A stretch of 64,000 nucleotides of DNA from Siphonodentalium dalli. Lineage: Eukaryota > Mollusca > Scaphopoda > Gadilida > Siphonodentaliidae. The notes below the pieces were generated by a model. The model saw only the letters and a list, made by a program, of their open reading frames with translations, was not told the DNA's origin and made no database searches. A program made the position numbers and the translations under genes. Shown in pieces: positions 23,838-53,689 of the stretch. How positions within the stretch are numbered: position 1 is the stretch's first letter; each line of letters begins with the position of its first letter. Where the stretch lies: NCBI GenBank assembly GCA_032622095.1, contig CP136065.1, forward strand, positions 220,328,151 to 220,392,150, in the 5' to 3' direction.

Positions 23838-24331
23838 TCACCTCTTAATAAGTTCTAATAAATAGTCCATTTCGAAGTAACCCATAGTTAGTAACCACCA
23901 GAAAACATAAATTCCACCAAGAATCGCGCTAATCACAACTAAGAATTTCTGTATATATCCACTGATATATCCCTGTGTTTGACGATCTGAAGAAGGCACA
24001 CATGCAGAAGGCACACATGCAGAAACTGTTTCACTTTTGTTTGAGAATTTGAAAACTTTGTAAGAATTGTTGACTACTTTGATTGACAGTTCAGTAGGGT
24101 CCATTTCTTTTGCCCATGCCACATATTCCAGGATTGCGGGTAGCCCACATGGTTCACTCCTCTTGTCTGTTGTATATTTATTGAGAAGGTGGCGGGCTTC
24201 TGGTGTTGGTTTAAATTGTTTCTTTTCATATTTTTTGTAATGGGGTAATAAGAATGTTGTTCGAGATCCAATCAGTATTTGATCATCTGGAATCAACTTG
24301 ATCCATTCGTAACAGCGCTTTCCAATATAAC
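23838..24331 (-). CDS. TATDN1-like: Terminal exon of TATDN1/TatD-like gene: C-terminal half plus membrane helix
   Basis: The acceptor (gatttttcag) lies at 24332 and the stop at 23838. The exon completes a split Gly codon from the exon at 25203. It reads GYIGKRCYEW, then IPDDQILIGSRTTFLLPHY at the place where TatD proteins have the conserved ETD motif, then KRSEPCGLPAILEYVAWAKE and SYKVFKF, matching the usual C-terminal helices and NxxxxF end of TATDN1. Beyond the family's normal end is a further ~70 residue tail with one strong hydrophobic helix (FLVVISAILGGIYVFWWLL), suggesting a C-terminal membrane anchor. The metal-binding Asp of ETD is replaced (GSR). An AATAAA lies at 23757-23752, about 80 bp past the stop. 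Confidence 0.8.
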
Positions 24332-24451
24332 CTGAAAAATCGTGATAAAATCAGTAATGTTGATGATCAGTGTCTATGTTGATATCACATTTAATAAATG
24401 CTACTACAATCAGCTACATCCATCAGTTATCTGATAAGGAATATGAAAGTA

Positions 24452-24671
24452 CAGTAATGCTCTAATTAATCGACCTCTTAACCAAAGCAGAATTATGGGT
24501 AACTTTTCAGGATTTAGTCGGAAATATGGCTTGTTGCCATTCATCGGAAAACTCTCCCGGTAACTTTTCAGGATTTAGTCGGAAATATGGCTTGTTGCCA
24601 TTCATCGGAAAGCTCTCAGGTTACCCATAATTCTGCTATGGTTAAGAGGTCGATTAATTAGAGCATTACTG
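24452..24671. mobile_element. TA-type foldback MITE P, copy in the last intron of the TATDN1-like gene
   Basis: CAGTAATGCTCTAATTAATC to the matching GATTAATTAGAGCATTACTG, flanked by TA. Both arms carry the same private changes (GACCTCTTAACC / GGTTAAGAGGTC). The left arm is partly duplicated in the same orientation around 24545-24615. Confidence 0.75.
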
Positions 24672-24752
24672 TATGTCACATAAATTTAAAGACATATTGT
24701 GGACTTATTTCACTGTATAAAACTGATGTTAGTACTCAAACACACTCCACAC

Positions 24753-24878
24753 TCGGAAATATGGCTTGTTGCCATTCATCGTATAGCTCTCAGTGAGAGC
24801 TTTCCAATGAATGGCAACAGCCATATTTCTGACTAAATCCTGAAAAGTTACCTGAGTCGATTATTTAGGGCATTACTG
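24753..24878. mobile_element. TA-type foldback MITE P, truncated copy
   Basis: It starts within the arm at CGGAAATATGGCTTGTTGCC, passes the CTCTCAGTGAGAG centre and ends at GCATTACTG-TA, with an internal deletion near the right end. Confidence 0.65.
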
Positions 24879-25202
24879 TAATTATGAATACGATCGATAG
24901 GATTTGACACTGCGCATTCTGTAGCACGTGATTTGCCACATTTTCCATAGAGGATTATGTAACCAAATAATCAAACAAGTTACCGGTATAGGTTTGTCTA
25001 ACATTTTAAGACCCCAATCTTCACACACAATATGCGCATTAGTTAATAATTTTGATAATAATTTAAAAATAAACTGTTTCTCCATCCATGAGGATGCATG
25101 AGGGGGCATCCGGTACTTTCGAGGGCGAGTTCGTCCTACCCATTGAACCCTAGCTGGGTACGGCCTTGGTCATTGACACTTTCATTATATGACACAACAG
25201 AC

Positions 25203-25380
25203 CTGTTATTTCAATATAGAAACCATTCTTCACATAAGCTGTAACGTCGTCTTTACCAAAACATTTATTAATTATGACTGGGGGTAGATTCTTGTATGTC
25301 TTTAGTATTGAGACAAGATCATCGTGGGCTTTGTCTCCGTAAGCGATAATAGGCTTCTGCAATTCACAGGCGAGCTCTAC
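25203..25380 (-). CDS. TATDN1-like: Exon 5 (visible numbering) of TATDN1/TatD-like gene
   Basis: The acceptor is ttgggttgcag and the donor is CAG|gtctgt. 59 codons plus one base in phase with both neighbours. VELACELQKPIIAYGDKAHD aligns with the TatD segment that normally reads ...KP(V/M)xxHxR..H, and PPVIINKCFGKDD with the segment that normally contains (V)HSF/HCF. Here the first His is Tyr and the second has no His, so two usual metal ligands are absent. NGFYIEITG matches the following strand. Confidence 0.85.
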
Positions 25381-25649
25381 CTGCAACCCAAGAAAAAGCT
25401 AAATTAAGATTGATACATAATAAGTAGGAGAGGCATCAATTATCATAAGTGAGGATTCAAATAAATTTTTTTATTTTTTTATTTTTGAGGTTCTCTTTTA
25501 TCTTCTACCAAGTAATAGAAACAGGATTTGTGCTGGCCAGATAATTCCTTTGACCAATTTTTTGGTCATCTCTGAATTTTTTACTCCATTTTTCAGAATT
25601 GTTTGCCAAGCTGAGAAACAAAATATCAGTCAGAAAATTTAAACTAAAA

Positions 25650-26035
25650 CAAATAAAAGTTGCCAACTACATGTCCCCCGAAAAGGTGGCTTTTTAGTAA
25701 CAGTAGCTTTTTTTTTAACTATGTCAAAATTCATCTGACCATGACCAAATTCAAACTTCGCCTTTGTCTTCTGTAATTTGAACCACGTACCAAATATCAA
25801 GAGATTCAGTTGAATTTAAAAACAATCAGATAACTAAAAGTAAATTAATATCTGTAAACCAAAATAATCGGCAAATTTTAAGTCAACAAGGACCATAACT
25901 CTGGCAAAAATGGGTGGACCAAACGCAAATTCGAACTTGACCTTTTGAGCTCATAAACTCACATACCAAATATGGTTTCGATCCGACAACCCAAAATAAA
26001 GTTATCATCCGGAAACCATACAGGTCACATCTCTA
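25650..26035 (-). repeat. Diverged G-type Helentron-like fragment
   Basis: It contains TGTCCCCCGAA-like sequence at 25673 and the monomer phrases AATTCGAACTTGACCTT and AAAGTTATCATCCGGAAACC, which are inverses of the G interior at 17.0 kb. No complete termini. Confidence 0.55.
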
Positions 26036-26039
26036 CAGG

Positions 26040-27155
26040 ACACATCACTCATTCAATCTTCTCCAAACTTCATATGGATCTTCGGGCTGACATCTAGATG
26101 GGAGCCTCTTATTTTTAGTTATCTTGGATTTCAAATTTGAATCCATCGGCACACCCTGAATTTATAGGAGAATTGTTTTGTAAATTTACAGGCAAGTTTA
26201 GAATCACCTCTGAATGGGAGCTATATAATTTGGACAATTTTCGTTGAACGATGTTGGAGCCGGCAGCCATCTTGGATTTTACTCTTTGCATGACTAAATC
26301 CTTTGGCACACCCTGCAGACAACATCCCTCATCCGATCGTCACCAAACTGCATATGGAACTTCGTGTTGACCTCTAGATGGGAGCCATAAAATGTTTTCG
26401 AGTTGAAAAATACGGCAGACAGTGGCCATCTTGGAATTTACTCTTTGTATGACTAAATCATTTGGCACACCCTACAAACGACATCCCTTGTCCGATCGTT
26501 GCTAAACTTCATATTGGTCTTCGGGATGAACTCTAGATGGGAGTCATCAAATTTCTCTGAATTTCGTTAAAAAACATGGATGGCCACCTGCAGCCATTCT
26601 GGATTTTACTCTTTACTGCATGACTAAATCCTTTGGCACACTCTACAGACCACACCCATCATCCAATCAAAAGCAAATTTTATATGGATCTGCAGGTTGA
26701 CTTCTAGATAGGAGCCATCATTTTTTTTTTCAAAATTCGTTGGAAAAACATTGCTTCCAGCAACCATCTTTGATTTTACTCTTTTCATGACTAAATCCTT
26801 CGGCACACCATACAGGCCACCAAACTTCATGCAGATCTTCAGGGAGCCATCGATGTAAAAAAAAAAAAAATAGCAGCCATCTTGGATTTAAAATTTGTAT
26901 CCATCCGCACATCCTGCAGCCCACATTTATCTGAGAAATTTTTTGGAAAATTTACAGGAATTTTTTTTTCAATTTCATTGGAAACTATGGCTGCCAGCAG
27001 CCATCTTAGATTTTACTTTATAAATATCGCTTCATGTTCACATCTAGAATTACTAAGATATTTAACTTTCCACATTCCTAATTGCTCCATTGACTGTAAC
27101 ACATGAAATTATCCCCCATCCAAGTTGAGCTACAGTGTCATTGACATTTTTATTA
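26040..27155 (+). mobile_element. Diverged F-type Helentron-like element, 5' end missing
   Basis: Six to seven degenerate monomers with GCAGCCATCTTGGATTTTAC and ATGACTAAATCCTTTGGCAC are followed by the F tail: CTCCATTGACTGTAACACAT, GTTGAGCTA and the hairpin AGTGTC-ATT-GACA. Monomers differ from F1-F3 by many substitutions, so this is an older copy. It lies in the intron between 27319 and 25380. Confidence 0.65.
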
Positions 27156-27318
27156 TTGCTATATAATATGGTTGATGTGGTCTTCATATAGCATAGATTC
27201 CTTCATGTGTGTATACTAGCTTAACAATTAAGTAGTTTTCTGTGTAGATCCATCTAAACATCCCACCTCCTGGCATAGCTCAGGCTTGGAAACCCCTTAA
27301 TTACATGCACATGCAAAC

Positions 27319-27473
27319 CTGTTTTATCAAATTGTTTTTCTGGAATTCCTTGGTGGGATCATCATGAGCATAATCAAGACCAATCTCTCCGATAGCAACA
27401 CAGTTTTGGTCCTGGGCCAGGGATCTCAGCTGGTTGCCGAGTTTCTTTGTCCAATCGTCCGAATAATACAGGG
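27319..27473 (-). CDS. TATDN1-like: Exon 4 (visible numbering) of TATDN1/TatD-like gene
   Basis: The acceptor is aatttcag and the donor AAACAG|gtttgc. It completes a codon split with the exon at 38437 and ends in phase 0. It encodes LYYSDDWTKKLGNQLRSLAQ then NCVAIGEIGLDYAHDDPTKE. The IGEIGLDY block is the most conserved TatD motif and keeps its metal-binding Glu. The preceding block, where family members often have HP, reads AALYYSDD here. A family 2 MITE begins only 28 bp upstream of the acceptor. Confidence 0.85.
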
Positions 27474-27500
27474 CTGAAATTAAAAAAAATACTGCACCAC

Positions 27501-30500
27501 TTAAATCCTTCCATGACCGGAGCTTCCTGAAATTTCTGAAAACCCTTTACCAATGCATGAGGGGGACCACCCCCTTTTCGTACGCCGGATTCCGGGGTCA
27601 ATATAGAGTATTCCGGATGCCGAATGTCAGTACGCCGGATGCCGAAACCTGTATATTTCGTATTCCGGATGCCGAAATTACAATGGCAGATATTATTTAG
27701 TAGGCCTACTGTTTTTTTATTGCATTCAACTATGGTTGTCACATAATTAATTTTATTTTCCTTTTGTAGCTTTTACGGTCGTACCCGTTGGAACGACGGC
27801 ATTTCACAATAGTCCCGCGTCAATAGAAACAATGACAACAATAGTGTAGATGGTGAACGCAAAATGTATAGTATGAGAGATAACTCGATCGCTTTTGAGA
27901 CTTCGACTTGTGACCTTGAAAATCTAACTTAGTAAACATGGCGCTCAAATTTGAGGCATCTAGTCCAGGAGATATTGGTCGACCTCTGCCCCACCAGGAC
28001 TCAACTTCATCCCACTAATTTTCTTTCTTAATGTCTCCTCTAATTTTTTTCGGTTAACCAGAAAAAAAGTGGCCGCAGAGACTTCAGACAAGATGGCGTC
28101 CATCATGACCTCCATTTTTTGATATGCACCAGGTCTCTTTGATCGCCGTTATAGTGAAAATGATATCACATGCGGTCTTGTTTTCCGCTCGATTCGTTAT
28201 GCTAATATACAACCCTTGCCAAAAATCCGATACCAGAATCCAATATGGCGGCAAAGATGGCCAAAAATTGGCGGCCTTATTGTTACGCGATTTGTACCCA
28301 CAATTACATGTTCATATGGAAAATAGTACTCAAATGAGTTTGGCAAATTCTCACAGTCAAGATGGCGACCAAACTGGTGGCCAGAAATGGAAAAGAAGTC
28401 GATATTATCACATACTAATTTCAACTTTTTGTCATTATTTCGATGGACAAAACGGTACATAATATAAGCCATCTCATAAGTCGTAGCCTTCTGGAAGAAT
28501 GGAAACCCACAATTAATAATCGTGATGTGGCATTTCAAAATCCATCATCCACTAACCACCCATAATGGCAGTAACCATATATAGGTGCGCCGAATAGTCA
28601 TAGTTTGACTTCCAAGAATCAAAACAACAGTACCTGAGTTCATTCTGATTTGCCACATTCATTATTATCTGGACCAGTTTCCGTCTCTTCGTCAGATTAA
28701 TCTAACTCTCTCACACCAACACAGTTTTCTAAACTTCTTTGTAGAATGGTCACACTAATCCGGTTGTTTCAAACAATGTATATGCCGGTGGCAGCCTCTA
28801 TCTGCGTATTTTCAGCTTTGGTGACCTAATGGGGATAACAACATGTACACCCTGGTGATCTTCCCAAACATCCACTTCTCAATATATGGTTCATCAATTC
28901 ACATACTCATCTAATTCACTGACGTACCCGGAAAACTTCTGTATATGGCTTCGAATGTTGAAAGCCTGACATTTGACGGATGCCTTACTGCTAAGGCGTA
29001 GAAGACCATAATGCATAATATACCCACATTTCTTAACCGCCTACATGTACTTGACTGTGAGTATCAATTGCCAACCTCAAATGAACACATACTTCATATC
29101 AATATTCCATATCAACATGTAATGGTGGGTAGAAATTGCGAAACAATAACGCCCATCGTAAGAAAGTAAATGAATGTAGGCATGTTTTCAAATTTTGGTC
29201 GCCATTTTTGCTGCCATCTTCTATTTGGAAAACAATTTTTTGTATGAGATGTAAGGTAATTACTTCACCTCAGTATTTCCAACTAAACTGTAAGAATCGG
29301 TGGAATTGTCTCGACAATAATGCTCAACGATGTGAATATGAGGGAATTTCGGTAATTCTTCAAAATATGTCCGCCATTGTGGGCGTCATTTTGGATTTGG
29401 GAGACCTTTATTTGGATATGGTACAAGGACAGTTCTTCGCCTAAGTGTTCCCAACTCACAATAGTAAGCAGATATGGAGTTGTCATGACAATAACGCTCA
29501 CTGATGTTAAAATCAGCGATTTTCGGCGATTTTTCTATTTCGGTGGCTATTTTGGCCGCCATCTTGGATTTGGGCGAATATTCCTCAACTCAGGTATAAG
29601 AGGAATCCTAGCTCGAGTATCTCCTGCACATATATGCATAGGTGTTGTTATGATGGCAATAATATTCATTGATTCGAAACATTACATCGCGTTATTAGCG
29701 TCGATTCGGACAATAATATCCCACAATGAATCTATATTATGGTCCCCTTGTGTTCGCCAATGACTCTTCTATACGACAAATGTATAAATTTACGTCAAGA
29801 TGCCACTATTTCCCCACAGAAACAAACGAAAGGTGGTGAAATGTCAGAAAAATAGCATATTTTCACATTCCGGTGGCCATCTTGACCGCCATATTGGATT
29901 TTGTGTCGGATTTCTGGCTAATTTGTAATGCATAACGAATCGAGCGGAAACAAGACCACATGTGATATCATCTTTGATATAATGGTGATCAAAGAGACCT
30001 GGTGCATATAAAAAATGGCAGTCATGATGGACGCCATCTTGTCTGGAGTCTCTGCGACCACTTTTTTCTTGTTAACAACAGAAACAAATTAGAGGAGACA
30101 TTAAGAAAGAAAATTAGTGGGGTGAAGTTGAGTCCGTGGGGGGGGGGGGGTGGGGGGGGGGGGCGTGCAGAGGTCGATCAATATCTCCTGGTCTAATCGT
30201 TCCGGGTGGAATTCAGTTCACCACGATGCCCGGAACAGCGGAATTTTTGTTTGTCTGTGTCAAATTGAACCAATATTTCATTATCGTAGCTAAAAAACCT
30301 CATCAATGGGTTACGGTGTTACTCGGTGGGCCGCATCGTTGGGTGTGGCGAATTTCAAAACAAAAATATCATTGAAGAGGCTAAAACCCGACCCAGAATC
30401 CCCCCATGGAAGGTGTTATGCTGTGGTGTGGAGACGGAATGGAGCAACGTAAAGGGATAGTTGCATAGCACTCCCACGTTTCATTCTAGCTTTGAGTATA

Positions 30501-30876
30501 TGGTCATATATAGAATGAATTGCACATTTGATACTACCGATGCGTTGTTTAGCTATAAACGGATTATATAAATGGGTTAAATTGGCATAAATAGTATTCC
30601 GGATGCCACCCCTCTGTTATGGAGTATTCCAGATGCCACCCCCGATTTTAGGCCGGATGCCAGAGGGGGTGGGGTGGTCCCCCCCTCATGTATCCTCTTA
30701 TATATGCGAGTCTCCCATATGGAGCCTCACATATATAAGATACAATGGCCTAACAATATTTACCTTGACCTTGTAAGACAGTGCATTCTCTTATATATAA
30801 AGAGTCTCCTAAAGAGAATGAACTGGCACAGGATCTTAATGCTGCACCAGCGCAGCTTCCGCCATGAAAGTGTTAA
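27501..30876 (-). mobile_element. Family 2 TTAA MITE hosting foldback element J
   Basis: On the plus strand it begins TTAAATCCTTCCATGACCGG, runs through GAAAACCCT...CCAATGCAT, is interrupted by J (27556-30690), and continues TCCTCTTATATATGCGAGTC to CATGAAAGTGTTAA. The order and hairpins match the intact family 2 copies at 39.4 and 48.5 kb in inverse orientation. Confidence 0.65.
27556..30690. mobile_element. Large foldback element J, 3.1 kb
   Basis: The extreme ends are inverse (TGAGGGGGACCACCCCC and GGGGTGGTCCCCCCCTCA), with several GTATTCCGGATGCC repeats inside each. A second, longer inverted repeat pairs about 27780-28210 with 29930-30230, for example ATGATATCACATG(C/T)GGTCTTG and its inverse and GGAGACATTAAGAAAG. 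The spacer has GCCATCTTGGATTT-like phrases. No transposase was seen; frames inside are accidental. Confidence 0.65.
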
Positions 30877-31273
30877 CCCTTTACCCAACAGAATGGCCCT
30901 GTGCCAATGCATTCTCTTATATATGCGAGTCGACCATAGGTCACCTCGCATATATAAGAGAATGCATTGGCTTAACACATTAAAAATTATAAAATTGTTA
31001 AAGAATGTAAGAAAAAATGGTAAAAAGTGTTAAAAAAAGATTTTTTTTAGGCCAATGCATTCTCTTATATATGCGAGGCGACCTAATGGTCGACTCGCAT
31101 ATATAAGAGAATGCATTGGCACAGGGCATAACTATAACTATCACAATGTGGTCAAGGAGCCGGTTCCAATGATATCCATATTTGTATGGTTCTATTGAGA
31201 CAGACCGAAGATATTTTAGGCTGTTGAAGCTTTATTTGGCCGGTTTTGGCCGGTTTGTTGGGTAAAGTGTTAA
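30873..31273 (-). mobile_element. TTAA-flanked MITE, family 1, copy 3
   Basis: 401 bp between TTAA at 30873-30876 and 31270-31273, in the minus orientation. Its left TTAA is also the end of the family 2 element, so it inserted at, or shares, that element's terminal target site. Confidence 0.85.
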
Positions 31274-31376
31274 GGCCTGGTTGCATACTTTGCATAAAAA
31301 ATTCTGAATGAGAATATAATGACAAATTCTATTTTGGTTCAAACTAAATGGGAACAAACTTAATTTTTTGTTTGTT

Positions 31377-31535
31377 AACCCTTTCATGACAGGAGCTGCG
31401 CTGGTGCAGCATTAAATATCCTGTGCCAGTTCATTCTCTTATATATGCGACTGTGGGAGACTCGCATTTATAAGAGAATTCATTGGCATAGGGTTTTCGC
31501 AAATTTTCAGGAAGCTCCAGCCATGAAAGGGTTAA
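31377..31535 (+). mobile_element. Family 2 TTAA MITE, short single-hairpin form
   Basis: TTAACCCTTTCATGACAGGA to CCATGAAAGGGTTAA, 159 bp, with one hairpin instead of two. The stem lost part of its CATAGG centre. Immediately to the right (31536-31625) is a fragment of foldback element N. Confidence 0.7.
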
Positions 31536-32088
31536 TCCCGGTTTCATTTATGCGCGGGATAGCGTCACTAAATTCACCCTCTGGGGGACCTCATTCTGCA
31601 AATGACAGGCACACTAAACTCAGGCTGGACAAGTGGTCGCATACAATGGCTATAGTTATCCATGGGTATACATGTAATAGAATAATAATAACTTTATAGA
31701 TATATTTGGATGTATCCAAGTTACATGTAGATTACATTGTAGGAGGATAGGCTAGTTATGGTCCAGTGCATTTATGAGAAAAAATGCCAAACCAGGAACT
31801 AATTGCAACAGATTTTTTTTTTGCTGGAATAAGTACATAAACCCTCCATAAACAACATACTAAAAATCGGAAAAATGGAAATTGGTGAATTTCGTGAAAT
31901 AAATTTGGGGAATTTGGTCAAATCATCAATTTATGGATTTTCATGGATGTATTTAAAAACAATCAAATTCACAAATCCTACAAATTCATACGTATTTTTC
32001 GAGTTGTGTGCCTTCAAATACGCGAGTTTACCTGATTTCGGCCCATTTTCGGGGCCTCAATTTCGAAGAAAGAGCCAAAATGCCTTAT

Positions 32089-33229
32089 TAGCTCAACTTT
32101 ACTTCGTAAAGTTTGAGCTATTGCCATGGCTTTGTCGTCCGTGTGTGCGTAAGGCGTCAACAATGCAGGCTGCAGGTCGTACCTTTGGTCGGATCATTAT
32201 GAAATTTGTCATAGCTGTTGACATCAACATTTAGACCATAATGATTAATTTTGGGGTCATTTGGAAAATAAACATGGCCGCCAGTGGCCATCTTGGATTT
32301 CAAAATTCAATCCTTTAGCACGGGCTACAGGCCGTACTGTTTGTCTGATCATCATGAAATTTGTCATGGATGTTAATATTGACATGTAGATGGGAACGAG
32401 TAATTTTGGGGTCATTCGGCCCAAAAACATGGCCGCCAGCAGCCATCTTGGATTTTACTCTTTGTATGACTAAATTCTTTAGCACGGGCTACAGGTCGTA
32501 CTTTTAGTCTGATCATCATAAAATTTGTCATGGCAGTTGAAATTGGAATGTAGATGGGAACGAGTCATTTTGGGGTCATTCGGACAAAAACATGGACGCC
32601 AGCAGCCATCTTGCATTTAAAAATTTAATCCATTAGCACGGGCCACAGTTCGTACTGTTCGTCTGATCATCATGAAATTTGTCATGGATGTTAATATTGA
32701 CATGTTGATGGGAACGAGTACTTTTGGGGTCATTTGGCCGAAAAACATGGCCGCCAGCAGCCATCTTGGATTTTACTCTTTGTATGACTAAATTCTTTAG
32801 CACGGGCTACAGGTCGTACCTTTAGTCTAATCATCATAAAATTTGTCATGGAAGTTAACAATGACATGTAGATGGGAACGAGTAATTTTGGGGTCAATCG
32901 GCCAAAAAACATGGTCGCCAGCAGCCATCTTGGATTTTACTCTTTGTATGACTAAATTCTTTAGCATGGGCTACAGGTCGTACCTTTAATCTGATCGTCA
33001 TAAAATTTGTCATTGATGTTAACGATGACATGTAGATGGGAACGACTCATTTTGGGGTCATTCGGCCGAAAACATGGCCACCAGCAGCCATCTTGGATTT
33101 TACTTTTCTCTTCATGTCTATAAACTAGTATTAGACATTCAACTTTCCACATTCCTAATCGCTCCATTGACTGTAATACATAAATTATTCCCTTTCCAAG
33201 TTGAGCTACAGTGTCATTGACACTTTCAT
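32089..33229 (+). mobile_element. Helentron-like element F3, complete, inserted in D1
   Basis: It runs from TAGCTCAACTTTAC (5' hairpin with TTTGAGCTA) through about seven 160 bp monomers to the tail GTTGAGCTA, hairpin AGTGTC-ATT-GACACT and TTCAT. The D2 copy gives the empty site (ATGCCTTATTTGTGATTAAT in inverse reading), so F3 entered between T and T. At 1141 bp this is the best full-length copy in the window. Confidence 0.85.
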
Positions 33230-34001: not shown

Positions 34002-37000
34002 ACAAGAGATGGACTGTCGTCCGGCGCATACCCCCTCATGGCATACCGCCTAGTGTGGGCACATCTATAACTTATGATGGCTATACTCAGACATATGGCC
34101 CCAGAAATCAGCATTTTCATATAAACAAAGATAACTATAGAACAAAAAACCAAAACAAACTTTTAAATGTGCCATTAAATGTCCTCATAGTGGTGAACAT
34201 CCATACAAAATTTCATTGAGTTCCGAGCATTACTGTTCAAGTTATGAGCTGAACAGACATCGGATGGACCAAACAACCAACATTTCCAGATAAACAAAGA
34301 TGAATAACTCTAGAATGGAAAAGCGGAACAGAACAATTGAACCCCCTATTGAATGTCCTCATAGCAGCGAATATCCATACCAAATTCCATTGAGATCCCA
34401 GCACAATTGTTGAAGTTACAACATGAACAGACACCAGATGGACTAAAAAGCCAACATTTCCCGATAAACAAAGATGAATAATAGTCCAGTGAATTTATGG
34501 TTTTAACCCAGAACTAATTGCAACAGAATTTTTTTTTGCTGGAATTGGTACATTATACCCTCCATAAACAACATACTAAAAATCGGCAAAAATCGGTAAA
34601 AGGGAAATTAGTGAATTTCGTGAAAAAAAAATTGAGAAAATTTGGTCAAATCGTCAGTTTATGGGTTTTCATGAATGTATATAAAAAATTCAAATTTACA
34701 AGTCCTACAAATATCATGCCTATTTTGTCGATCACATTTTCCTGAATCCAGAACTGGAAACCATTCCCAGATTCCTTAAGTATTTTTCGAGTTGTGTGCC
34801 TTCAAAAACGCGAGTTTACCTGATTTCGGAGCCTTAATTTCTCAGAATGAGCCAAATGCCGTATTATATGGTTAATTATTTAAAAAACTAGAGCAAAATT
34901 AATTACTTTTACACTGTTTTAGTAATTTCCTCACTAGATAAAACACAAAATATGATTAATATGTGCATCTATGAATAAGGAGAATAAAATATTCTCAAAT
35001 AAAATGTGTGTTCCATTGTATGGACTTGGCCAAATTTGCCTTGACACATAACTCGTGTGATGAAATACCATATTTGAGGTCATGTAACTCAATAAATTAA
35101 TATCCATATGCTCTGCTTTTCTCATAACATTTTGAGAATACTAGATTGAACAAATTGTGAAGGAATTTCCAAATACATTGGTGAAGAAAATAAAATTATG
35201 GTCCTATGAACTCTTAGTCTAGCCTCTTTTCCGAAAATGCAATTGTGGGACGTTTTGGTCAATTTTAAAAGGATTTTAGGCATATTCAGAAAAATTAACG
35301 AAAGTTTATTGTGTAAAATTATGTGATCTGTCCTCTTAAATCATTTTTTTTGTTGAGAAAATAGCATTTCAATGGCTATACCAATGAATTTCACTGGATT
35401 TCACTCATCATTGTGGAAACATACTCCAAATTTGAACGGCAGAAAAATGGGGTAGGGGAAAGCATATCAACAAAATCTTCAAAATTATGCATCTTGAAGC
35501 AGAAAACTTTATATTAACAGTTTCTGCTTACATTGTTCTTTCATACATAATTTCATATTTCCTTTTTTTATGTTTATTGACAGAGCTATAATATTTTTTG
35601 TCATAATTTGGCAGTGAAATGTCAAATTGGCTATTTTGAGATTGTTTTATACAACATAACCATAAAATTCTAAATCAACGTCCGATAATGTATTAAGCAG
35701 TTTTATAATGCAACAGGAATGTACACAAAACTTGAAGAAAACAACATTGTGTCTGAAATGGCTGTAATTTGGTGATAAGATTGCATTTTGTGATTTTTCC
35801 TACCCCTATACCAACGTTAAAATTTGGAGTCAGTTTCCTGAAAAATGAAAGAAATCAAGTGAAATACTATGGCATAACCAATGTAAGGCTAATTTTTTAT
35901 CACTAAATTGTTGTGGGAGGAAAGTTCAAATAATTTTACACATTAAAACACCCATTGTTTTTTGTTTTTATGGCCCAAATCCTTTTAGATTGGACAAAAA
36001 TGCCTCAAACTGGCATCTTTGGAAACAAGCTAAAACTAAGTATTCAAAGGGCCATAAGTTGATTTTCTTAAATAATGTCCTGTTAATACCTTTACATTTT
36101 GTTCAATCCAACATACTTAAAAGGTTATAAGAAAAGCATGGCATATGGGTATTATATTATTGAGTTACATGACCTCAAATATTGCATTTCATCACACACG
36201 TTCAGTGTCAGAGGCAAAATTGGCCAGGTCCATACAATGGAACACACATTTTGTTTGAGAATATAATCTTCTTCTTAATTATAGATACACATATTAATCA
36301 TATTTTGTGTTTAATCTAGTGAGGAAATTACTATACCACTGAAAAATCCCTTCAGTTTGCTCTAGTTTTTTTAATAATTAATCACAAATAAGGCATTTTG
36401 GCTCATTCTTTGAAATTGAGGCCCCGAAAATGGGCCGAAATCAGGTAAACTCGCGTTTTTGAAGGCACACAACTCGAAAAATACGTAATGAATCTGGGAC
36501 TGGTTTTCAGTACTGGGTTCAGGAAATTGAGGTCGACACAATACACATACCATTTGTAGGATTTGTGAATTTGATTGTTCTGATATGCATCCATGAAAAT
36601 CCATAAATTGATGATTTGACCAAATTTCCCCAAATTTATTTCACGAAATTCACCAATTTCCATTTTTCCGATTTTTGCCGATTTTTAGTATGTTGTTTAT
36701 GGAGGGTTTATGTACTTATTCCAGCAAAAAAAAATTCTGTTGCAATTAGTTCCGGGTGTGGCATTTTTTTCTCATAAATGCACTGGACTATAACTCTAGA
36801 AAGGAAGAGCGGTGCAAAACAATGGAACCCCCTATTGAATATCCTCATAGCAGTGAACATCCATACCAAATTCCATTGAGATCCCAGCACAATTGTTGAA
36901 GTTACAACATGAACAGAAACCAGACGGACCAAAAATCCAACATTTCAAGATAAACAAAGATGAATAACTCTAGAATGGAATATCCGAACAAAACGATGGA

Positions 37001-37338
37001 ACCCTCTATTTAATGTCCTCATAGTTGTGAATATCCATACCAAATTTGGTTGAGACCCCAGCCCAACTGTTGAAGTTACGACATGAACAGACACCAGACG
37101 GACAAAAAAGCCACTATTTCCAGATAAACAAAGATGAATAACTCTAGAATGGAAAATCCGAACAAAACGATGGAAACCTCTATTTAATGTCCTCATAGTA
37201 GTGAACATCCATACCTAATTTCATTGAGATCCGAGCACTACTGTTCAAGTTATGACATGAACAGACATCAGACGGACGGACGCACGGACGGACAGGTGCA
37301 AAACAGTATACCCCCCTTTTTTTTTAAAAGGGGGTATA
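34002..37338 (-). mobile_element. Helentron-like element E2, inserted in D1 and split by D2
   Basis: In minus orientation it begins TATACCCCC (37338), has the CCGT tract and E monomers, is interrupted at 34481-36790, and ends GGAC-GACA-GTCC-ATCTCTTGT (34002). The D2 centre gives the empty site (TTTATTGACAGAGC), again split between T and T. Confidence 0.8.
34481..36790. mobile_element. Foldback element D2, second copy of D1 in inverted orientation
   Basis: The ends are TAGTCCAGTGAATTTATGG and CATAAATGCACTGGACTA, with TA on each side; the host E monomer phrase GATGAATAACTCTAG is restored across it. Its left arm matches the D1 right arm and its right arm matches the D1 left arm, more closely than its two arms match each other. 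D2 is uninterrupted, so it provides the empty site for both E2 and F3. Confidence 0.85.
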
Positions 37339-38436
37339 ATAAACATAAACAAAGGAAATATGAAATTACATATGAAAGAACAATGTAAGCAGAAGCTGTT
37401 AATTATAAAGTTTTATGCTTCAAGATAAATAATTTTGAAGATTTTGTTGATATGCCTTCCCCTACCCCATTTTTCTGCCGTTTAAATTTGGAGTAAGTTT
37501 CCACAATGATGAGTGAAATCCAGTGACATTCATTGGTATAACCATTGAAATGCTATTTTCTCAACAACAAAATGATTTAAGAGGACAGATCACATAATTT
37601 TACACAATAAACTTTCGTTAATTTTTCTGAATATGCCTAAAATCCTTTTAAATTTGACAAAAACGCCCCACAATAGCATTTTCGGAAAAGAGGCTAGACT
37701 AAGAGTTCATAGGACCATAATTTTCTTTTCTTCACCAATGTATTTGGAAATTCCTTCACAATTTGTTCAATCTAGTATTCTCAAAATGTTATGAGAAAAG
37801 CAGAGCATATGGATATTAATTTATTGAGTTACATGACCTCAAATATGGCATTTCATCACACGAGTTCTGTGTCAAGGCAAATTTGGCTAAGTCCATACAA
37901 TGGAACACACATTTTGTTTGAGAATATTTTATTCTCCTTATTCATAGATGCACATATTAATCATATTTTGTGTTTTATCTAGTGAGGAAATTACTAAAAC
38001 AGTGAAAAAGTCATAAATTTTGCTCTAGTTTTTTAAATAATTAACCATATATTAAATACGGCATTTGGCGAAATTAAGGCTCCGAAATCAGGTAAACTCG
38101 CGTTTTTTTGAAGGCACACAACTCGAAAAATACTTAAGGAATCTGGGAATGGTTTCCAGTTCTGGATTCAGGAAAATGTGGTCGACAAAATAGGCATGAT
38201 ATTTGTAGGACCTGTAAATTTGAATTTTTTATATACATTCATGAAAATCCATAAATTGATGATTTGACCAAATTTTCCCAATTTTTTTTCACAAAATTCA
38301 CTAATTTCCCTTTTTCTGATTTTTGCTGATTTTGTTTATGTATGTTGTTTATGGAGGGTATATGTACCAATTCCAGCAAAACAAAATTCTGTTGCAATTA
38401 GTTCTGGGTAAAACCATAAATGCACTAGACTATTAC

Positions 38437-38532
38437 CTGCAGCGTAGTACATGATTCCTTTATGATGTAAAGACAGTCGCCTCATTTCACTCTGGCTTTC
38501 TGGACGACCTAATACTATGATCTTCTCAGTCC
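38437..38532 (-). CDS. TATDN1-like: Exon 3 (visible numbering) of TATDN1/TatD-like gene
   Basis: The acceptor is tatgttacag and the donor CTGCAG|gtaata. 96 bp, in phase with both neighbours. It encodes TEKIIVLGRPESQSEMRRLS and HHKGIMYYAA, matching the TatD stretch in which G-V-x-K-(I/F)-(I/M)-(V/T)-(T)-G is followed by a helix and then the A-G-(V/C)-H-P strand. The normal HP pair would straddle the next junction and is absent here. The 11 kb intron after it contains the D1 nest and J. Confidence 0.85.
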
Positions 38533-38632
38533 CTGTAACATAGCAACATGCAATACAATATAACATGATTATTAAAGATTCCCAGCTAATAAATTTTGAA
38601 GCAACATTTACTATCAGCTTCCAGATCAAGCC

Positions 38633-39063
38633 TGAGTTCAGTGTGCCTGTCATTCGCAGAATGAGGTCCCCAGAAGGTGAATTTAGTGATGCTATCCCAC
38701 ATAGCGGACTAGCATAACTAAATTCACCCTCTGGGGAGCTCATTCTGCTTTGGCCTCATCTTCTCTGGAAAGTTTCTTTATTATGAAATTTTCTATAGAA
38801 ACTTCTTCACATAGATTCTATTTCTTTTTTAGTTTCATTTCTCTATATCCCCAAATCGGAAGACGACACATTTCATAATCGAGGTTCCCAACTCAATCTG
38901 AGTCTGTCTCCCATAGCAGATGAGGCCATGCAGAATGAGGTTCCCAGAGGGTGAATTTAGTGATGTTAGCCCGCTATGCGGGATAGCATCACTAAATTCA
39001 CCTTCTGGGGACCTCATTCTGCAAATGACAGGCACACTATTATATATATAAAACTCAGGCTTG
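38633..39063. mobile_element. Foldback element N, copy 5, long form
   Basis: CAAGCCTGAGTTCAGTGTGC at the left and the inverse (ACTCAGGCTTG) at the right. GAATGAGGTCCCCAGAAGG and GAATGAGGTTCCCAGAGGG dyads flank a spacer of about 190 bp. TATATATATA interrupts the right end. Confidence 0.7.
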
Positions 39064-39217
39064 TTCTAAATCATCATTTTTACATGACAATTTAATTTTT
39101 TGTAAAATTCCAAGCTGATCCAGGATAAGGATTATTTTTTGGACCTGATGATTACTAAATTTTATTATTTATCATTTCAATATGTTTGAGGAATTGTTTT
39201 TACCTTGATCTGTGGTA

Positions 39218-39369
39218 CAGTAATGCTCTAAATAATTGTTGCCATTCATTGGAAAGCTCTCAGTGAGAGCTTTCCGATGAATGTCAACAAGCCATATTTT
39301 CGACTAAATCCTGAAAAGTTACCCATAATTCTGCTGTGGTTAAGGAGTCGATTATTTAGAGCATTACTG
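39218..39369. mobile_element. TA-type foldback MITE P, deletion copy
   Basis: CAGTAATGCTCTAAATAAT jumps directly into TGTTGCCATTCATTGG, so most of the left arm is gone; the right arm is complete to GCATTACTG. Confidence 0.65.
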
Positions 39370-39401
39370 CATAAATATTAGGAGGTAGTTTAAAGGGACT
39401 T

Positions 39402-39664
39402 AATCCTGAGGTTCATGAAGGGAGCTGCGCTGGTGCAGCATTAAAGATCCTGTGCCAGTGCATTCTCGTATATATGCAAGTCTCCCATAGGGAGCCTCTC
39501 ATATATAAGAGAATGCACTGGCTTACAAGGTAAATATTTTTAGGCCAATGTATTCTCATATACATAATATGGGAGGCTCCCTATGGGAGACTGACATATA
39601 TAAGAGAATGCATTGGCACAGGGTTTTCGCAAAATGTCAGAAAGCTCCAGTCATGGAAGGGTTG
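39402..39664 (+). mobile_element. Family 2 palindromic MITE, two-hairpin form
   Basis: GGAGCTGCGCTGGTGCAGCA near the left and CAGTCATGGAAGGGTT near the right. Two inverted hairpins have CTCCCATAGGGAG centres. Seven bases further right is a family 1 copy. Confidence 0.75.
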
Positions 39665-39670
39665 AGGCCT

Positions 39671-40068
39671 TTAACCCTTTACCCAACAAACCGGCCAAAA
39701 ACGGCCAAATAAAGCTGCAACAGCCTAAATTATCTTGGGTCTATCAATAAAACCATACAAATATGGATATCATTTGAACCGGCTCATTGACCACATTGTG
39801 ATGGTTACAGTTATGCCCTGTGCCAATGCATTCTCTTATATATGCGAGTCGACCATAGGTCGCCTCGCATATATAAGAGAATGCATTGGCCTAAAAAAAA
39901 TCTGTTTTTAACACTTTTTACCATTTTTTCTTACATTCTTTAACAATTTTATAATTTGTAATGTGTTAAGCCAAAGCATTCTCTTATATATGCGAGGCGA
40001 CCTATGGTCGACTCGCATATATAAGAGAATGCATTGACACAGGGCCGTTCTGTTGGGTAAAGGGTTAA
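39671..40068 (+). mobile_element. TTAA-flanked MITE, family 1, copy 4
   Basis: 398 bp between two TTAA. Hairpin arms are intact apart from a CCAAAGCATT / GCATTGACAC pair of scattered changes at 39972 and 40032. Confidence 0.85.
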
Positions 40069-40515
40069 AGTGAGTTCATGCGATTAATTAGATTTACTTA
40101 TTTTCATTATTAATTACTCTCCAAAATTGAGATTTCGCTTGTCAAAGCCATTGTTATGTAAACATTATGGTTACAGTGGAATTACCGATAGAAGTCCAAT
40201 TAGCCCAATAAGATACCTAAGTTAAATAAAAAACTTGATGTTAACATTGGAGAATTTCAAACTATTGAAAAATATTCATAAAATCATATTCAGACAAAAG
40301 TATTTGAACTTAATTTATGATTAGCAATGTTTGATGACAAATGACTGAAACTGTTTTGTTTACATAACAATAGTTTCAACACGTGATATTTTATTATTGG
40401 AGAAATATCGATAATGCAGACTTTTATATTATTTGCACATTTACCCCACTGTGAGTGCCTTGGGTCCCTTTAATGACTGATATAGTGTTTAAACCCAAAA
40501 ATGACATTATATATC
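40069..40515. other. Intron sequence with a small dyad
   Basis: CATTGTTATGTAAACA at 40149 and the inverse TGTTTACATAACAATAG at 40358 could be the ends of a short unidentified element. Nothing else was recognised. Confidence 0.4.
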
Positions 40516-40518
40516 ATA

Positions 40519-40930
40519 CTAGCCGATGAGCCCGACGTTGTCCGGTCTATTCAAAAACCAACAGACGTTGTCCGGGCTATTCAAAAACCAAATTTCAAGT
40601 CGATAGCTCCACCCGTTTCCGAGATCTGGTCTGCGCATGCGCGAAGCTGGCGTCGCACGGGCTCGGCGACCCGATAAAATTCGTATCCGGGGCAAGATAC
40701 ATTCACATAGCAAATTTCAAGTCGATAGCTCCACCCGTTTCCGAGATCTCGCCTGCGCATGCGCGAAGCGGGCGCCGCACGGGCTCGCCAATACGACAAC
40801 GTCCACCGCCTGGTCAAACTACACACACGTACCAAGTTTCGTACCGATCGGTCAAGAATCGTAGATTTGTATAAATGACAAACTGACAAACATACAAACA
40901 GAGGTCTTCAAAATATATATGAGATTCTAC
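40519..40930 (+). mobile_element. Tandem-core element Q, copy 2
   Basis: It starts ACTAGCCGATGAGCCCGAC; the first ~40 bases with TTGTCCGG(T/G)CTATTC are duplicated. Two 126 bp monomers and the end TTCAAAATATATATGAGATT follow, as in the 18.65 kb copy but with fewer monomers. Confidence 0.7.
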
Positions 40931-42252
40931 ATTGTATACTATAGGAAATAGGATGTTCCAAATAAAAGATATAACAAAGTTATCTAGTTGAAAAAATTTA
41001 ATTAAATGTTATATAACTGATGTAACCTGAATGTTTGTTTTTGGGAGTTTCTATAATAATAGTCCAGTCAACATAGGGTTTGACCTAGAGTCCAAGAAAT
41101 GATTTTTATCATTTTTAGAATCAGTACACAATTCCGATCAACATATCAAAAATCTTCTACGAGATATGTGCATGATGTTTCATACTCGAGCATATTCTGG
41201 GGTTATCCCATATCAGAAATTCACCAATTATTGTTAAGGGTAGGTTAGGTATCAGGAGTATTTCGGGACAGTTTTGGAGAAAAACTGGCCACAAATGATT
41301 ACATTTGACACATGGATCACTGGTCATTTGAACAAAATTGTCTACTAAGAAACCGCATTGTAACAGCATGAAAATTAGTCTTACATACAGTGTATGATGT
41401 GCCGTCTCTTTGACCTTGTGTGGTGGGGTGCTAATCTATTAATGAGATGATTGTTTCTTTACAATATAATAGACAGATCCATCGAAATGTATAACTGTGT
41501 AATTCCTATGCTGCAATATATCATATAATGACTTATTTCAAGAATTGATGTAATATAGACAACCATGTTGGACGCCAACAAAGTTTCTCCAAAGCGGATT
41601 TTTAGATATTGTATACTGAAGACTCTCCTGCGTCTTTTGACATTAAAATCGCTTTCTTACCAATTTCTTTCGGGTTAACCCATCTTTTCACGTACAAACG
41701 CCACACTATCATTGTTTTGCACTCAGCGATATTTTTACCCATGTGACCTCTGCAGCAAAATGATGTCAGCTTCATGCCCAATCGTGAGGCAATTAGAAAT
41801 TCATTTACATCATTTTTATATATGACATGGCCCCATACTCCAAGCATACATCATGTTGGTGTGATTTTCTTACCCATATACACCTTAACAGAAACCACAG
41901 AAAACACCCATGGGCACTGCCAGAAAAGATGTCAGTTTTCATATTTTGCACACAGATCTCGCAGAGGTGTGGGAAAGGACCCCGCACACCATGAGAATAT
42001 ATAGTTTCAATTCTGTCAAATTTTGTCCAGGTTAGGCCATATTTCTCGTATTTTGACTGAACTATAATGTTTTGAGCTGGACTTGTTACCAGAAACTTGC
42101 AATGCATTGTGGAAGAAAAAGCGGGAAGTCACTGAGCGATTTTCCATCCCTTGTTGGACACTTCTAGGGCACAGATGTTCCATATCTTTGTGGAATATAC
42201 AATATTTCTTGATATGCACAAATAATGTAACTATTTCCAGACTAAATCTTAC
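40931..42252. other. Intron 2 of the TATDN1-like gene, no exon recognised
   Basis: Several overlapping minus-strand frames of 60-100 codons occur at 41602-42255, but none joins the flanking exons in phase or shows a TatD motif, while exons 42253 and 38532 join directly in phase. AATAGTCCAGTCAACATAGG at 41059 resembles the end of family D. Confidence 0.5.
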
Positions 42253-42485
42253 CACAAGTTTTAGCCCTGTTAATCATGACTGTCCATTCAGACATGTAGT
42301 TTTTGTTGGCCATACTTGTAGCAACATCCACCATTCTGTACATAAATTTTAATTTTGTTTCCAGCAGCCTCTCTGGTATTGTTATTGGCTTTGTCTGGTA
42401 GACACCCTGATCCGTCGTCATCCATGTTGTTTTGAAAATATCACCCAGTTCATGAGAAATGTCAATTAAATAATCGTCTACCTTC
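42253..42485 (-). CDS. TATDN1-like: Exon 2 (visible numbering) of TATDN1/TatD-like gene: start of the TatD domain
   Basis: The acceptor is ccatttttag and the donor TGTG|gtaaga. It is in phase with the exon at 44938 (2+1) and the exon at 38532 (1+2). DDYLIDISHELGDIFKTTW matches the first strand of TATDN1 (F-I-D-I-x-x-N-L-x-D), which already lacks the HxH of bacterial TatD. A ~30 residue insertion containing KPITIPERLLETKLKF precedes the helix WTVMINRAKTCG that leads into the next exon. Confidence 0.75.
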
Positions 42486-42564
42486 CTAAAAATGGAAATG
42501 TGTTGTCAAATATAATGACCTAAGCATTATTTTGGTTGTGCATGTAGTATGGAGAAGAATTCTT

Positions 42565-42720
42565 AACTGAAATTTTCGAAAACCCTGTGCCAATGCATTT
42601 CGTATATAACCGAGTCTCCCATAGATAAGAGAATGCATTGGCCTAAAAATATTTAACTTCACCTTGTAAGCCAGTGCATTCTCTTATATATGCGGGCACA
42701 GGATCATGAAAGAGTTTTAA
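42565..42720 (-). mobile_element. Family 2 MITE, decayed copy
   Basis: CGAAAACCCTGTGCCAATGC, a shortened first hairpin, TTCACCTTGTAAGCCAGTGC and a truncated second hairpin, ending GATCATGAAAGAGTTTTAA. Confidence 0.6.
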
Positions 42721-42939
42721 GATGCATAATCCAAATTAATGCTACTAAATTACTATTTCTTTGTCTTCCGGGGCCTAACAAATATTTTATTCGATTTGAG
42801 GAACGCACCCAACAAATCTCAAAGTTATCAGATATTTATTTTGTTTAAATCTGTTATTTTTCACCATCTGGAATATTTGGCAGCCTGGCAAATATTCGAC
42901 GATTGCTGACTGACATACTCTCGATACCAAATTGCGTTG

Positions 42940-43110
42940 AACAAAACGTTGATATATAACAATTTTTGGGCAATATTATACTATAGTTGACAGTGGTTAG
43001 CATTATCTATTGGCAATTAATCGATCTGATAACTGTAGCGGCATTTCAAGAAATATTGTTGTTGTGGATGGAATCTTATGATATGGAGACCATCAAATCT
43101 GATTGTGTGC
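42940..43110 (-). repeat. Repeat shared with the tandem array at 52.4, 56.9 and 61.8 kb
   Basis: The inverse of this segment reads AATCAGATTTGATGGTCTCC, then CGCTACAGTTATCAGATCGA and TAATGCTAACCACTGTCAAC, matching 52373-52495 with scattered differences. A run of the 12 bp unit AATATGTGATAA follows at 43130-43190. It may be a dispersed element or old shared sequence of the two TATDN1-like loci. Confidence 0.5.
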
Positions 43111-43355
43111 CTTTAAAGACCCATATAATATGTGATAATAATATGTGATAATAATATGTGATAATAATATGTGATAATAAACTTAGGATTCTATTTTTGA
43201 TTATTTCACCTTTGTTGTATTCCTTGCATTGAAGTTGACAGATCAATACATATTGATATTTATGTACTGTCCACTTCGACATGTTTATCACAATGTGTAT
43301 CGAATGAAACCTGCTCGTCAGGCCAAATTTCAGAATAAACCCACAAGACTACCTA

Positions 43356-43569
43356 CAGTAATGCCCCAAATAATCGACTCATTAGTCACAGTAGAATTAT
43401 GGATAACTTTTCAATATTTAGTCGGAAATATGTTATTATTGCCATTCATCAGAAAGCTTTCACTGAGAGCTTTCCAATGAATGGCAACAAGCCATATTTC
43501 CGACTAAATCCTGGAAAATTACCCATAATTCTGCTGTGGTTAAGGAGTCGATTATTTAGGGCATTACTG
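43356..43569. mobile_element. TA-type foldback MITE P, full copy
   Basis: TA-CAGTAATGCCCC to GGGCATTACTG-TA, near-complete palindrome around AGCTTTCACTGAGAGCTTTC. Confidence 0.75.
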
Positions 43570-43845
43570 TACAGCCACAAGACTACCTAATTTATTGATT
43601 GCTTTCAGCTCTCCATACAACAGTGTTAATGAATTCAATGCATTTGGGGACATATTGAGCTGAACCCCTATTTTACTTAGCAGCCCCATTTAACCAATGC
43701 TATTCTAAATACTCATTGACAAGTAGTTCGCAAAGGAAATGTTCAGGAAGCTCCATATGAAAGGGTTAATCCTGGTTTCCTTTAATGTTTATATACTTTT
43801 GGATTTTTAATGAATTAGATTAAATTATGCTTAGGATTAGAAATA

Positions 43846-44025
43846 CTGTAATGCCCTAAATAATGACTCCTTAACCACAGAAGAATTATGGGTAACTTTT
43901 CACGAATTAGTCGGAAATATGGCTTGTTGCCATTCATCGGCAACAAGACATATTTCCGACTGAATCGTGAAAAGTTACCCATAATACTTCTGTGGTTAAG
44001 GAGTCAATTATTTAGAGCATTACTG
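43846..44025. mobile_element. TA-type foldback MITE P, copy with arm-matched private changes
   Basis: Both arms carry CCACAGAAG / CTTCTGTGG, where other copies have CCACAGCAG / CTGCTGTGG, and TTCACGA / TCGTGAA in place of TTCAGGA / TCCTGAA. The centre is reduced to CATCGGCAACAAG. Confidence 0.75.
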
Positions 44026-44029
44026 TATT

Positions 44030-44250
44030 TCCCTTAGGAAATGTTCAGACATCCGGTTGTTTTGTTGAACTTATTATCTAAATATTTCCCACCAATGAAC
44101 ATGAATCATTCTGCATTTGTATTATGTGTTTTTCTGTCTGTTGTCTACTTTTGTTACCTGAACACCCCTCTAAATGAATAATAGACAGTTCCAATGTATA
44201 CTTTTATAACTGAATGGGAGAATCCATTTAGTAAAGAAAAAGGGTTAAAT
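44030..44250. mobile_element. Family 3 TTAA element, right part continuous
   Basis: AGGAAATGTTCAGACATCCG, then TTGAACTTATTATCTAAATA, then CCATTTAGTAAAGAAAAAGG and TTAA. It abuts the P element on the left. This copy shows the uninterrupted sequence that is split at 11.2 kb. Confidence 0.55.
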
Positions 44251-44262
44251 GAATCTGAAAAG

Positions 44263-44812
44263 AACTGCCATATTATAATAAAGGACACCCTACACCAAAT
44301 ACATGCTATATTACAATAAAGGACACCCTACACCAAATACATGCTATATTATAATAAAGGACAACCTACACCAAATACATGCTATATTACAATAAAGGAC
44401 AACCTACAACAAATACATGCTATATTATAATAAAGGACAACCTACACCAAATACATGCCATATTATAATAAAGGACACCCTACACCAAATACATGCTATA
44501 TTATAATAAAGGACAACCTACACCAAATACATGCTATATTATAATAAAGGACAACCTACACCAAATACATGCAATAATATAATAATTAATGGCAACCTAC
44601 ACCAAATACATGCTATATTATAATAAAGGACAACATACACCAAATACATGCTATATTATAATAAAGGACAACCTACACCAAATACATGCCATATTATAAT
44701 AAAGGACAACCTACACCAAATACATGCTATATTATAATAAAGGACACCCTACACCAAATACATGCCATATTATAATAAAGGGCAACCTACACCAAATACA
44801 TGCTATATAATT
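44263..44812 (+). repeat. Minisatellite S3, 38 bp unit
   Basis: About 14 copies of CTATATTATAATAAAGGACA followed by ACCTACACCAAATACATG. Variant positions (AACCT/CACCC, GCTAT/GCCAT) alternate irregularly. It lies just downstream (gene sense) of the exon at 44938, in the following intron. Confidence 0.9.
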
Positions 44813-44937
44813 TTACCCAAATACATGCTTATATCATTAAGTATATTTTTGATACATGCTTATATCATTAAAGTATGTTTTTTATACTCCTCTTCGTCCA
44901 TACATGCTTTGAAAGTGATACTTTCTTTATAACTTAC

Positions 44938-45109
44938 GTGTCAGTATATTTGAATATTTTATCAACCATTTTCTTTGGAACACTAAGCCTTCCAAATCCC
45001 CGACTTTTCCCTTTCTTGTCAGTGAATATTTCAATTTTGGTGCGTTCATTTTTAGGAAGCTTGAGAGCTTTCTTCAGAGTATCGACAGTTGTAATTTCAT
45101 TCAGGTTCA
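44938..45109 (-). CDS. TATDN1-like: Exon 1 (visible numbering) of TATDN1-like gene: RRM-like segment
   Basis: The acceptor is acaatttcag and the donor GACAC|gtaagt. It joins the exon at 42485 with a 2+1 codon. It encodes NLNEITTVDTLKKALKLPK then RTKIEIFTDKKGKSRGFGRL. KGKSRGFGRLSV resembles the RNP1 motif of RNA-recognition motifs, and the beta-strand IEIFTD precedes it. Only part of an RRM fits here, so at least one earlier exon must exist to the right; none was found before 51 kb. Confidence 0.65.
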
Positions 45110-53350: not shown

Positions 53351-53689
53351 CTGAAAAAATTGTGAAGGGATTATGCAATTATTAGTGATTAGTGTTCAAT
53401 ATTAATATTTAATGAATGCTGCCAGATCAACCAGTAATTGGGCAAATATTTCCTGTATGATAAATGAAACATGAATAACTGATTGAAAGAAAGAAAGTGT
53501 CTATACTCTTGCGATTACATTTTCTCTAAATTTTGTTTAATTTTTAACGTTCAAAGATGTATTCAGGGTGCCAAACTATTTTTTACAAGTTTACAATTGG
53601 AATTCCATATGCAACGTCAGCCGCGTCGGTGAATATATCTGCAAATATACTGAGTATTTTTATATTAAGTACTGTACTCGTAGCAGTAA

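Follow-up and report, generated by a model that had tools for sequence, protein, structure and literature searches.

A gene on the minus strand of a 64,000-nucleotide stretch of the Siphonodentalium dalli genome (the window; G000:C5:220328151-220392150, from an assembly of 2.23 Gb in 9 contigs) is a real gene and one of seven duplicated copies. Its 452-residue product is predicted to consist of a divergent RNA recognition motif (RRM; residues ~7-78), a TatD barrel (~118-383), a hydrophobic segment (418-436) and a 16-residue end. On balance, and with modest confidence, we favour the explanation that the copies encode tail-anchored, non-catalytic RRM-TatD nucleic-acid binders which arose from a duplicated TatD nuclease gene.

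Structure of the gene and its copies

A first-pass annotation of the window had described a gene of six exons joined in phase. All six are present, as exons 2-7 of the gene, and when joined they give 1328 nt with a sole stop at the end, AG at all six acceptors and GT at all five donors. However, the first of them (45109-44938) begins mid-codon; the six-exon model, of 441 residues, therefore lacks the start exon. When the DNA upstream of six copies was compared, a single stretch, repeats aside, was found to be common to all six, and in each of them it holds a 31-nt exon that opens with ATG and is bounded by a donor reading GTGAG or GTAAG. With this overlooked exon 1 added, the gene has seven exons, spans 49249-23838 and yields the 452-residue protein (Table 1). 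Exon 4 was the hardest to place: a motif filter gave no result, while phase, open frame and donor score left 72 candidates, from which 38532-38437 was chosen by its likeness to a TatD strand, a choice borne out by matching exons in the other copies. An AATAAA begins at 23757, 81 bases past the final coding base.

Searching the assembly with the 441-residue model gave 61 matches. Of these, 54 fall within two regions of C5, at 218.78-218.94 and 220.35-220.42 Mb, and the remaining 7 lie outside them. Seven full copies, all on C5, have fitting splice sites and the common 5′ stretch. A search with the 206-bp exon-1 stretch, which was not exhaustive, gave seven matches in the assembly, one per full gene (the window copy and those named c2, c3, c4, c6, c7 and c8). 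Six copies have a complete reading with one stop each, and c2 became complete once its exon 1 was located at C5:218814098-218814303. Splice sites in the copies were sought only in the phases of the window gene and the most similar were chosen, so that the agreement in phase is partly by construction; the open frames with usable AG and GT sites, seen in all seven, are not. Given that seven copies carry the same arrangement, it is not due to chance. The stretch upstream of exon 1, conserved in all seven (76-100% over 206 bases), suggests a shared promoter.

It should also be noted that two donors depart from the consensus. The one after exon 5 (27318-27313) reads gtttg in all seven copies, and the one after exon 6 (25202-25197) reads gtctgt in five of the seven and gtatta in the other two.

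The TatD barrel and its active site

The Pfam family TatD_DNase (PF01026) matches residues 110-372 of the 441-residue model (E=1.2e-28; 100.6 bits against a curated cut-off of 27), and a profile built from five copies (all but c2 and c4) matches E. coli TatD (1xwy) with E=1.3e-27 and human TATDN1 (8efg) with E=4.5e-20. The barrel homology extends over ~205 and 252 profile positions, respectively, and includes the Glu of GEcGLD. The published active-site residues of TATDN1 are Asn12 (of the GxN motif), His77, Glu112, His149, His174 and Asp222, of which Glu112, His149, His174 and Asp222 are the metal ligands of Class I TatD proteins (PMC10085689).

In contrast to TATDN1, all seven copies are without the equivalents of His77, His174 and Asp222, with Asn at the second and Arg at the third of these positions. 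The equivalent of His149 is Tyr in the window copy, c2, c3, c4 and c8 and Phe in c7; only c6 has His. Likewise, the Asn of the (G/A)xN motif is kept solely in c6 (GTN), the window copy reading ATS, so that this Class I feature is missing from six of the seven copies. Of the Class I metal ligands the window copy has the Glu alone, with Tyr, Asn and Arg at the other three positions. These readings agree with the first-pass annotation, which had reported an IGEIGLDY segment with its Glu intact, Tyr for the His of KPxxxH (the window reads KPIIAY), a missing HSF/HCF His (PPVIIN, with Asn at that place) and GSR for ETD; its list was incomplete: GxHP has likewise lost its His, and (G/A)xN its Asn.

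A second gene in the same genome, at C5:164184500-164199000, serves as a residue-intact relative. Its exons read GVHPHD, VAIGECGLDY, FIHERDAHDD, IHCFTG and ETDAPY; the 14.5 kb stretch did not reveal its N-terminal exon, and the GxN motif lies outside what was read. It shares with the window gene four intron positions and their phases (the starts of exons 4, 5, 6 and 7), and 88 of 242 aligned residues are identical. Unlike the window gene, it keeps GVHPHD, IHERDA, IHCFTG and ETDAPY, and it has no tail, its stop following immediately past the domain. No RRM-like exon was matched within its 14.5 kb, and the genome search with the RRM-like front of the window protein returned none there. At the His174 position, MAFFT offsets its sequence by one residue while tblastn pairs the Asn with His; the window copy has no His at either of the two residues that could be the partner. 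Arg119, which has been tied to DNA binding in TATDN1 (PMC10085689), has an Arg equivalent in this relative; at that position each of the seven copies has His, Glu or Lys.

Loss of catalysis in the window family is therefore likely but unproven: likely because the losses are combined and Asp is changed to Arg, and unproven because the kept Glu corresponds to the residue whose mutant, E112A, was the sole one among the metal-coordinating residues tested to lower both TATDN1 activities significantly (PMC10085689). A still active, unusual nuclease would retain residual or altered activity through Glu207, a metal being held with the help of other side chains or of the nucleic acid, and several observations count in its favour and against a dead barrel. 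The Glu112 equivalent is kept in all seven copies; c6, with its GxN Asn and its His149 equivalent, retains three of the six active-site residues where the others retain one; and TATDN1 mutated at a single ligand stays active, H149A and H174A being mild (apurinic/apyrimidinic (AP) endonuclease activity down only 2-fold) and D222A having no significant effect (PMC10085689). Nevertheless, the His77, His174 and Asp222 equivalents are jointly gone throughout, the Asp has given way to Arg and not to a neutral residue, the Arg119 equivalent is likewise gone from all seven, and H77A alone cut the AP endonuclease activity of TATDN1 10-fold, with exonuclease activity not lowered (PMC10085689). We thus hold continued nuclease activity to be unlikely.

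The RRM-like front and the hydrophobic tail

With exon 1 in place, the front of the protein reads MRKDYRTLYIMNLNE...KIEIFTDKKGKSRGFGRLSV, which was compared with the RNP2 and RNP1 consensus motifs of RRMs. Exon 1 supplies the RNP2 (LYIMNL), and the RRM-like segment noted in the first-pass annotation is therefore credible, though as a divergent RRM. The RNP2 fits the consensus in all seven copies and the RNP1 fits it in part; the tyrosine of the former and the phenylalanine of the latter are identical across the copies read. Pfam RRM_1 (PF00076) is found in all five copies given to the search, from residue 8 to 50-53, with E-values of 0.0043-0.12; it is the sole family in c3, and three other copies also list weaker unrelated families. 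A profile of the front matched 44 sequences in the PDB, of which 39 are named as RRM proteins and 5 are not. The whole-sequence E-values are at best 6.5e-4 and 9.2e-4, and both of these add up several RRMs. Finally, hhalign of the front against RRMs of the same genome gave a probability of 93.5% and a score of 38.2 over 46 columns; none of 200 column shuffles did as well, the highest scoring 20.0. The set aligned to came from 14 loci, one of which was dropped for an internal stop; the remaining 13 yielded 11 peptides, two of them identical. As in nucleolin, PABP and U1A, the family has an RNP2 of the form LYI[MTV]NL, an RNP1-like KSRxFG and weak profile matches. The donor of the RRM was sought in the genome with the front as query: 14 rows belong to the seven genes themselves, and six places elsewhere matched weakly (E 0.8-9.5).

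Other features set the front apart from those three proteins and weigh against its assignment. The RRM_1 scores, 12.7-17.3 bits, lie below the 20.7-bit gathering cut-off in all five copies; in c6 the HHA family is listed at an E-value equal to that of RRM_1; the top PDB match has a best single-domain E-value of just 5.5; the fifth position of RNP1, usually aromatic, is Arg or Lys in all seven copies, the eighth being non-aromatic as well; and the later part of the fold is unmatched by Pfam. Homology to RRMs is nonetheless supported by the profile comparisons, and we consider a divergent RRM, below the Pfam cut-off, to be the credible reading of this segment.

At the other end of the protein, the most hydrophobic 19-residue stretch of the window copy is 418-436 (mean 2.32), after which 16 residues remain to the C-terminus. 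All six copies measured (c2 left out) have such a tail, with KD19 values of 1.93-2.83 and 14-25 residues after it, and the best 19-residue stretch starting before residue 380 reaches at most 1.34. A single hydrophobic segment near the C-terminus with none earlier, the sequence pattern of tail anchors, is thus present in each of the six. In tail-anchored proteins the other domains face the cytosol. The window protein is accordingly predicted to be a tail-anchored membrane protein with its RRM and barrel cytosolic; of the membrane tethering proposed in the first-pass annotation, the hydrophobic helix after the domain is seen family-wide and the tethering itself stays a prediction.

Nucleic-acid binding by the RRM and the barrel is likewise predicted. 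The same domains could instead make up a scaffold at the membrane, in which the RRM-like fold and a dead barrel would serve protein-protein contacts and hold no nucleic acid. The Arg or Lys at RNP1 position 5 and the restriction of the RRM match to the first part of the fold are what such a scaffold would allow, while the constancy, in the copies read, of Tyr in RNP2 and Phe in RNP1, and the derivation of both domains from nucleic-acid binders, speak against it. We regard it as improbable, about as much so as an active nuclease.

Selection, origin and related loci

The ratio of nonsynonymous to synonymous substitution rates (dN/dS) was calculated for the 15 pairs among six copies (c2 left out). 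Over the whole gene it is 0.32-0.56 in all 15, with dS up to 0.67; by part, it is 0.19-0.97 in the RRM, 0.24-0.53 in the linker, 0.28-0.71 in the TatD domain and 0.18-1.08 in the tail. The upper values for the RRM part (0.97) and the tail (1.08), reached in one pair each, count against the explanation that we favour. Seven Fisher tests, on pairs that we picked, show an excess of silent changes over the whole gene (p=1.4e-17 for the window copy and c8, 5.0e-11 for c7 and c8, 1.2e-4 for c3 and c6), in the RRM (6.6e-4, window copy and c8), in the TatD domain (1.9e-13, window copy and c7) and in the tail (0.027, window copy and c8; 0.0095, c7 and c8). Judged from these substitution patterns, the family is under purifying selection. 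A decaying pseudogene family, its frames still open owing to recent duplication, would fit the near identity of c2 to the window copy (differences at 3 of 439 aligned residues) and the partial copies of exon 7 nearby, but is highly improbable and was rejected on account of the open frames and usable splice sites of all seven full copies and the whole-gene dN/dS below 0.6 at such dS.

Taken together, the TatD homology and the family-wide loss of metal ligands, the RRM-related front and the tail partly support the first-pass description of a non-catalytic, membrane-tethered, nucleic-acid-related protein, with catalytic loss as our inference and tethering and binding as predictions. We propose that an ordinary TatD nuclease gene was duplicated, and that the two-metal site would have been lost from the duplicate, which would also have acquired an RRM and a membrane tail. 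The Arg in place of Asp may pair with the kept Glu instead of metals. The protein would then act as a tether, sensor or decoy: its RRM and a metal-free barrel would bind RNA or DNA at the surface of an intracellular membrane and leave it uncut. Later, the family would have multiplied on C5. A more specific version, which we offer tentatively and hold to be rather less secure than the joint explanation, is that the tail-anchored RRM-TatD proteins are pseudonucleases of a tandem family specific to this lineage, in which an internal Glu-Arg pair has replaced the metal site and whose members would sense or tether RNA or DNA while bound to a membrane. Any role in immunity or in RNA localisation is a guess.

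TatD proteins have been studied as nucleases; here, if the proposal is true, they have been turned from cutting to binding. Neither E. coli TatD nor TATDN1 has the RRM-like front or the C-terminal hydrophobic tail. In the open-licence literature we found no paper pairing TATDN1 or TatD with 'pseudoenzyme' and, at the level of titles and the beginnings of abstracts, no report of the RRM-TatD-tail arrangement among the papers listed; those joining TatD, RNA recognition motif and transmembrane are, at that level, not about such a protein. With most of the active site lost, an RRM and a tail acquired and purifying selection acting on it, a multigene family of this kind would amount to a natural experiment on how a nuclease becomes a binder. 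Seven paralogs and a residue-intact relative stand in one genome, and since the paralogs have not all lost the same residues (three of six remain in c6, one in each of the others), the order of the losses is open to test. In a tree of the seven copies the deep nodes have support of 57 and 59, and the outgroup branch is ~2 substitutions per site long; the rooting and, with it, the order of the losses are uncertain.

Table 1. Positions, in the window, of the gene's exons and of associated features
Feature	Position	Strand	Remarks
Exon 1	49219..49249	-	MRKDYRTLYI + one base; most of RNP2 (LYIMNL); donor gtgaga; from upstream block conserved in six copies; c2 exon 1 identical
Conserved stretch: exon 1 + upstream, possible promoter / 5′ untranslated region	49215..49420	-	7 matches in assembly, 76-100% identity, window's own counted
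Exon 2 (A)	44938..45109	-	Remainder of RRM-like domain; RNP1-like KSRGFGRLSV at 45008-44979
Exon 3 (B)	42253..42485	-	Linker + TatD barrel start; (G/A)xN motif = ATS, Ser125 codon 42316-42314
Exon 4 (C)	38437..38532	-	TatD strand KIIVLG; counterparts in other copies
Exon 5 (D)	27319..27473	-	IGEIGLDY; kept Glu207 codon 27387-27385; GxHP His gone
Exon 6 (E)	25203..25380	-	KPIIAY (Tyr243, 25341-25339) + PPVIIN (Asn267, 25269-25267) replace two metal His
Exon 7 (F)	23838..24331	-	GSR for ETD (Arg312, 24263-24261), TatD domain end, hydrophobic segment 23945-23889, stop
Stray exon-7 copy, first of three in window part of 4.5-4.9 kb tandem array	52839..53378	-	tblastn 96% to c3 exon 7; outside gene itself
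Further stray exon-7 copies in window array	near 57379-57918 and 62244-62783

Upstream of the gene, tblastn gave nothing but matches to exon 7 at E 1e-3. They belong to a tandem array that runs from window position 52839 to 64000 and on to G000:C5:220419569, in units of 4.5-4.9 kb whose self-matches within the window are 99.8-99.95% identical. The units match the last exon alone (96% identical to c3), and the assembly holds nine array copies. This suggests either a recent amplification or an assembly effect. Within the main cluster, the spaces between full genes hold more solitary or broken exon-7 matches (G000:C5:218891002-218891118 and 218868029-218868574).

TatD domains were also encountered in other contexts. 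A genome search with PF01026, in which 150 of 529 candidates were scored, placed many in long frames of up to 2082 residues, and two of these were examined. One (G000:C5:240193500-240203400) joins reverse transcriptase, RNase H, integrase and TatD in a single open frame; the other (G000:C6:156538500-156546500) has an integrase-PHD frame and an adjoining frame of 1371 codons with a Tpt1/KptA RNA 2′-phosphotransferase domain and a C-terminal TatD. The active-site residues of both TatD domains were read as intact and the frames are retroelement-like; no pair of long terminal repeats (LTRs) was seen in the fetched stretches around them. The parts of the open-licence literature covered gave no paper pairing TatD with gypsy and integrase; TatD and LTR retrotransposon do co-occur, in two papers. 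In the giant squid, a gene labelled TATDN2 is listed with the non-Hox genes that lie inside the Hox cluster (PMC6962438).

Elsewhere in the window, a long minisatellite with units of ~22-80 bp (TACATACTGATTCACA...) occupies 7745-9920, and 8001-10000 shows a strong GC skew of -0.577.

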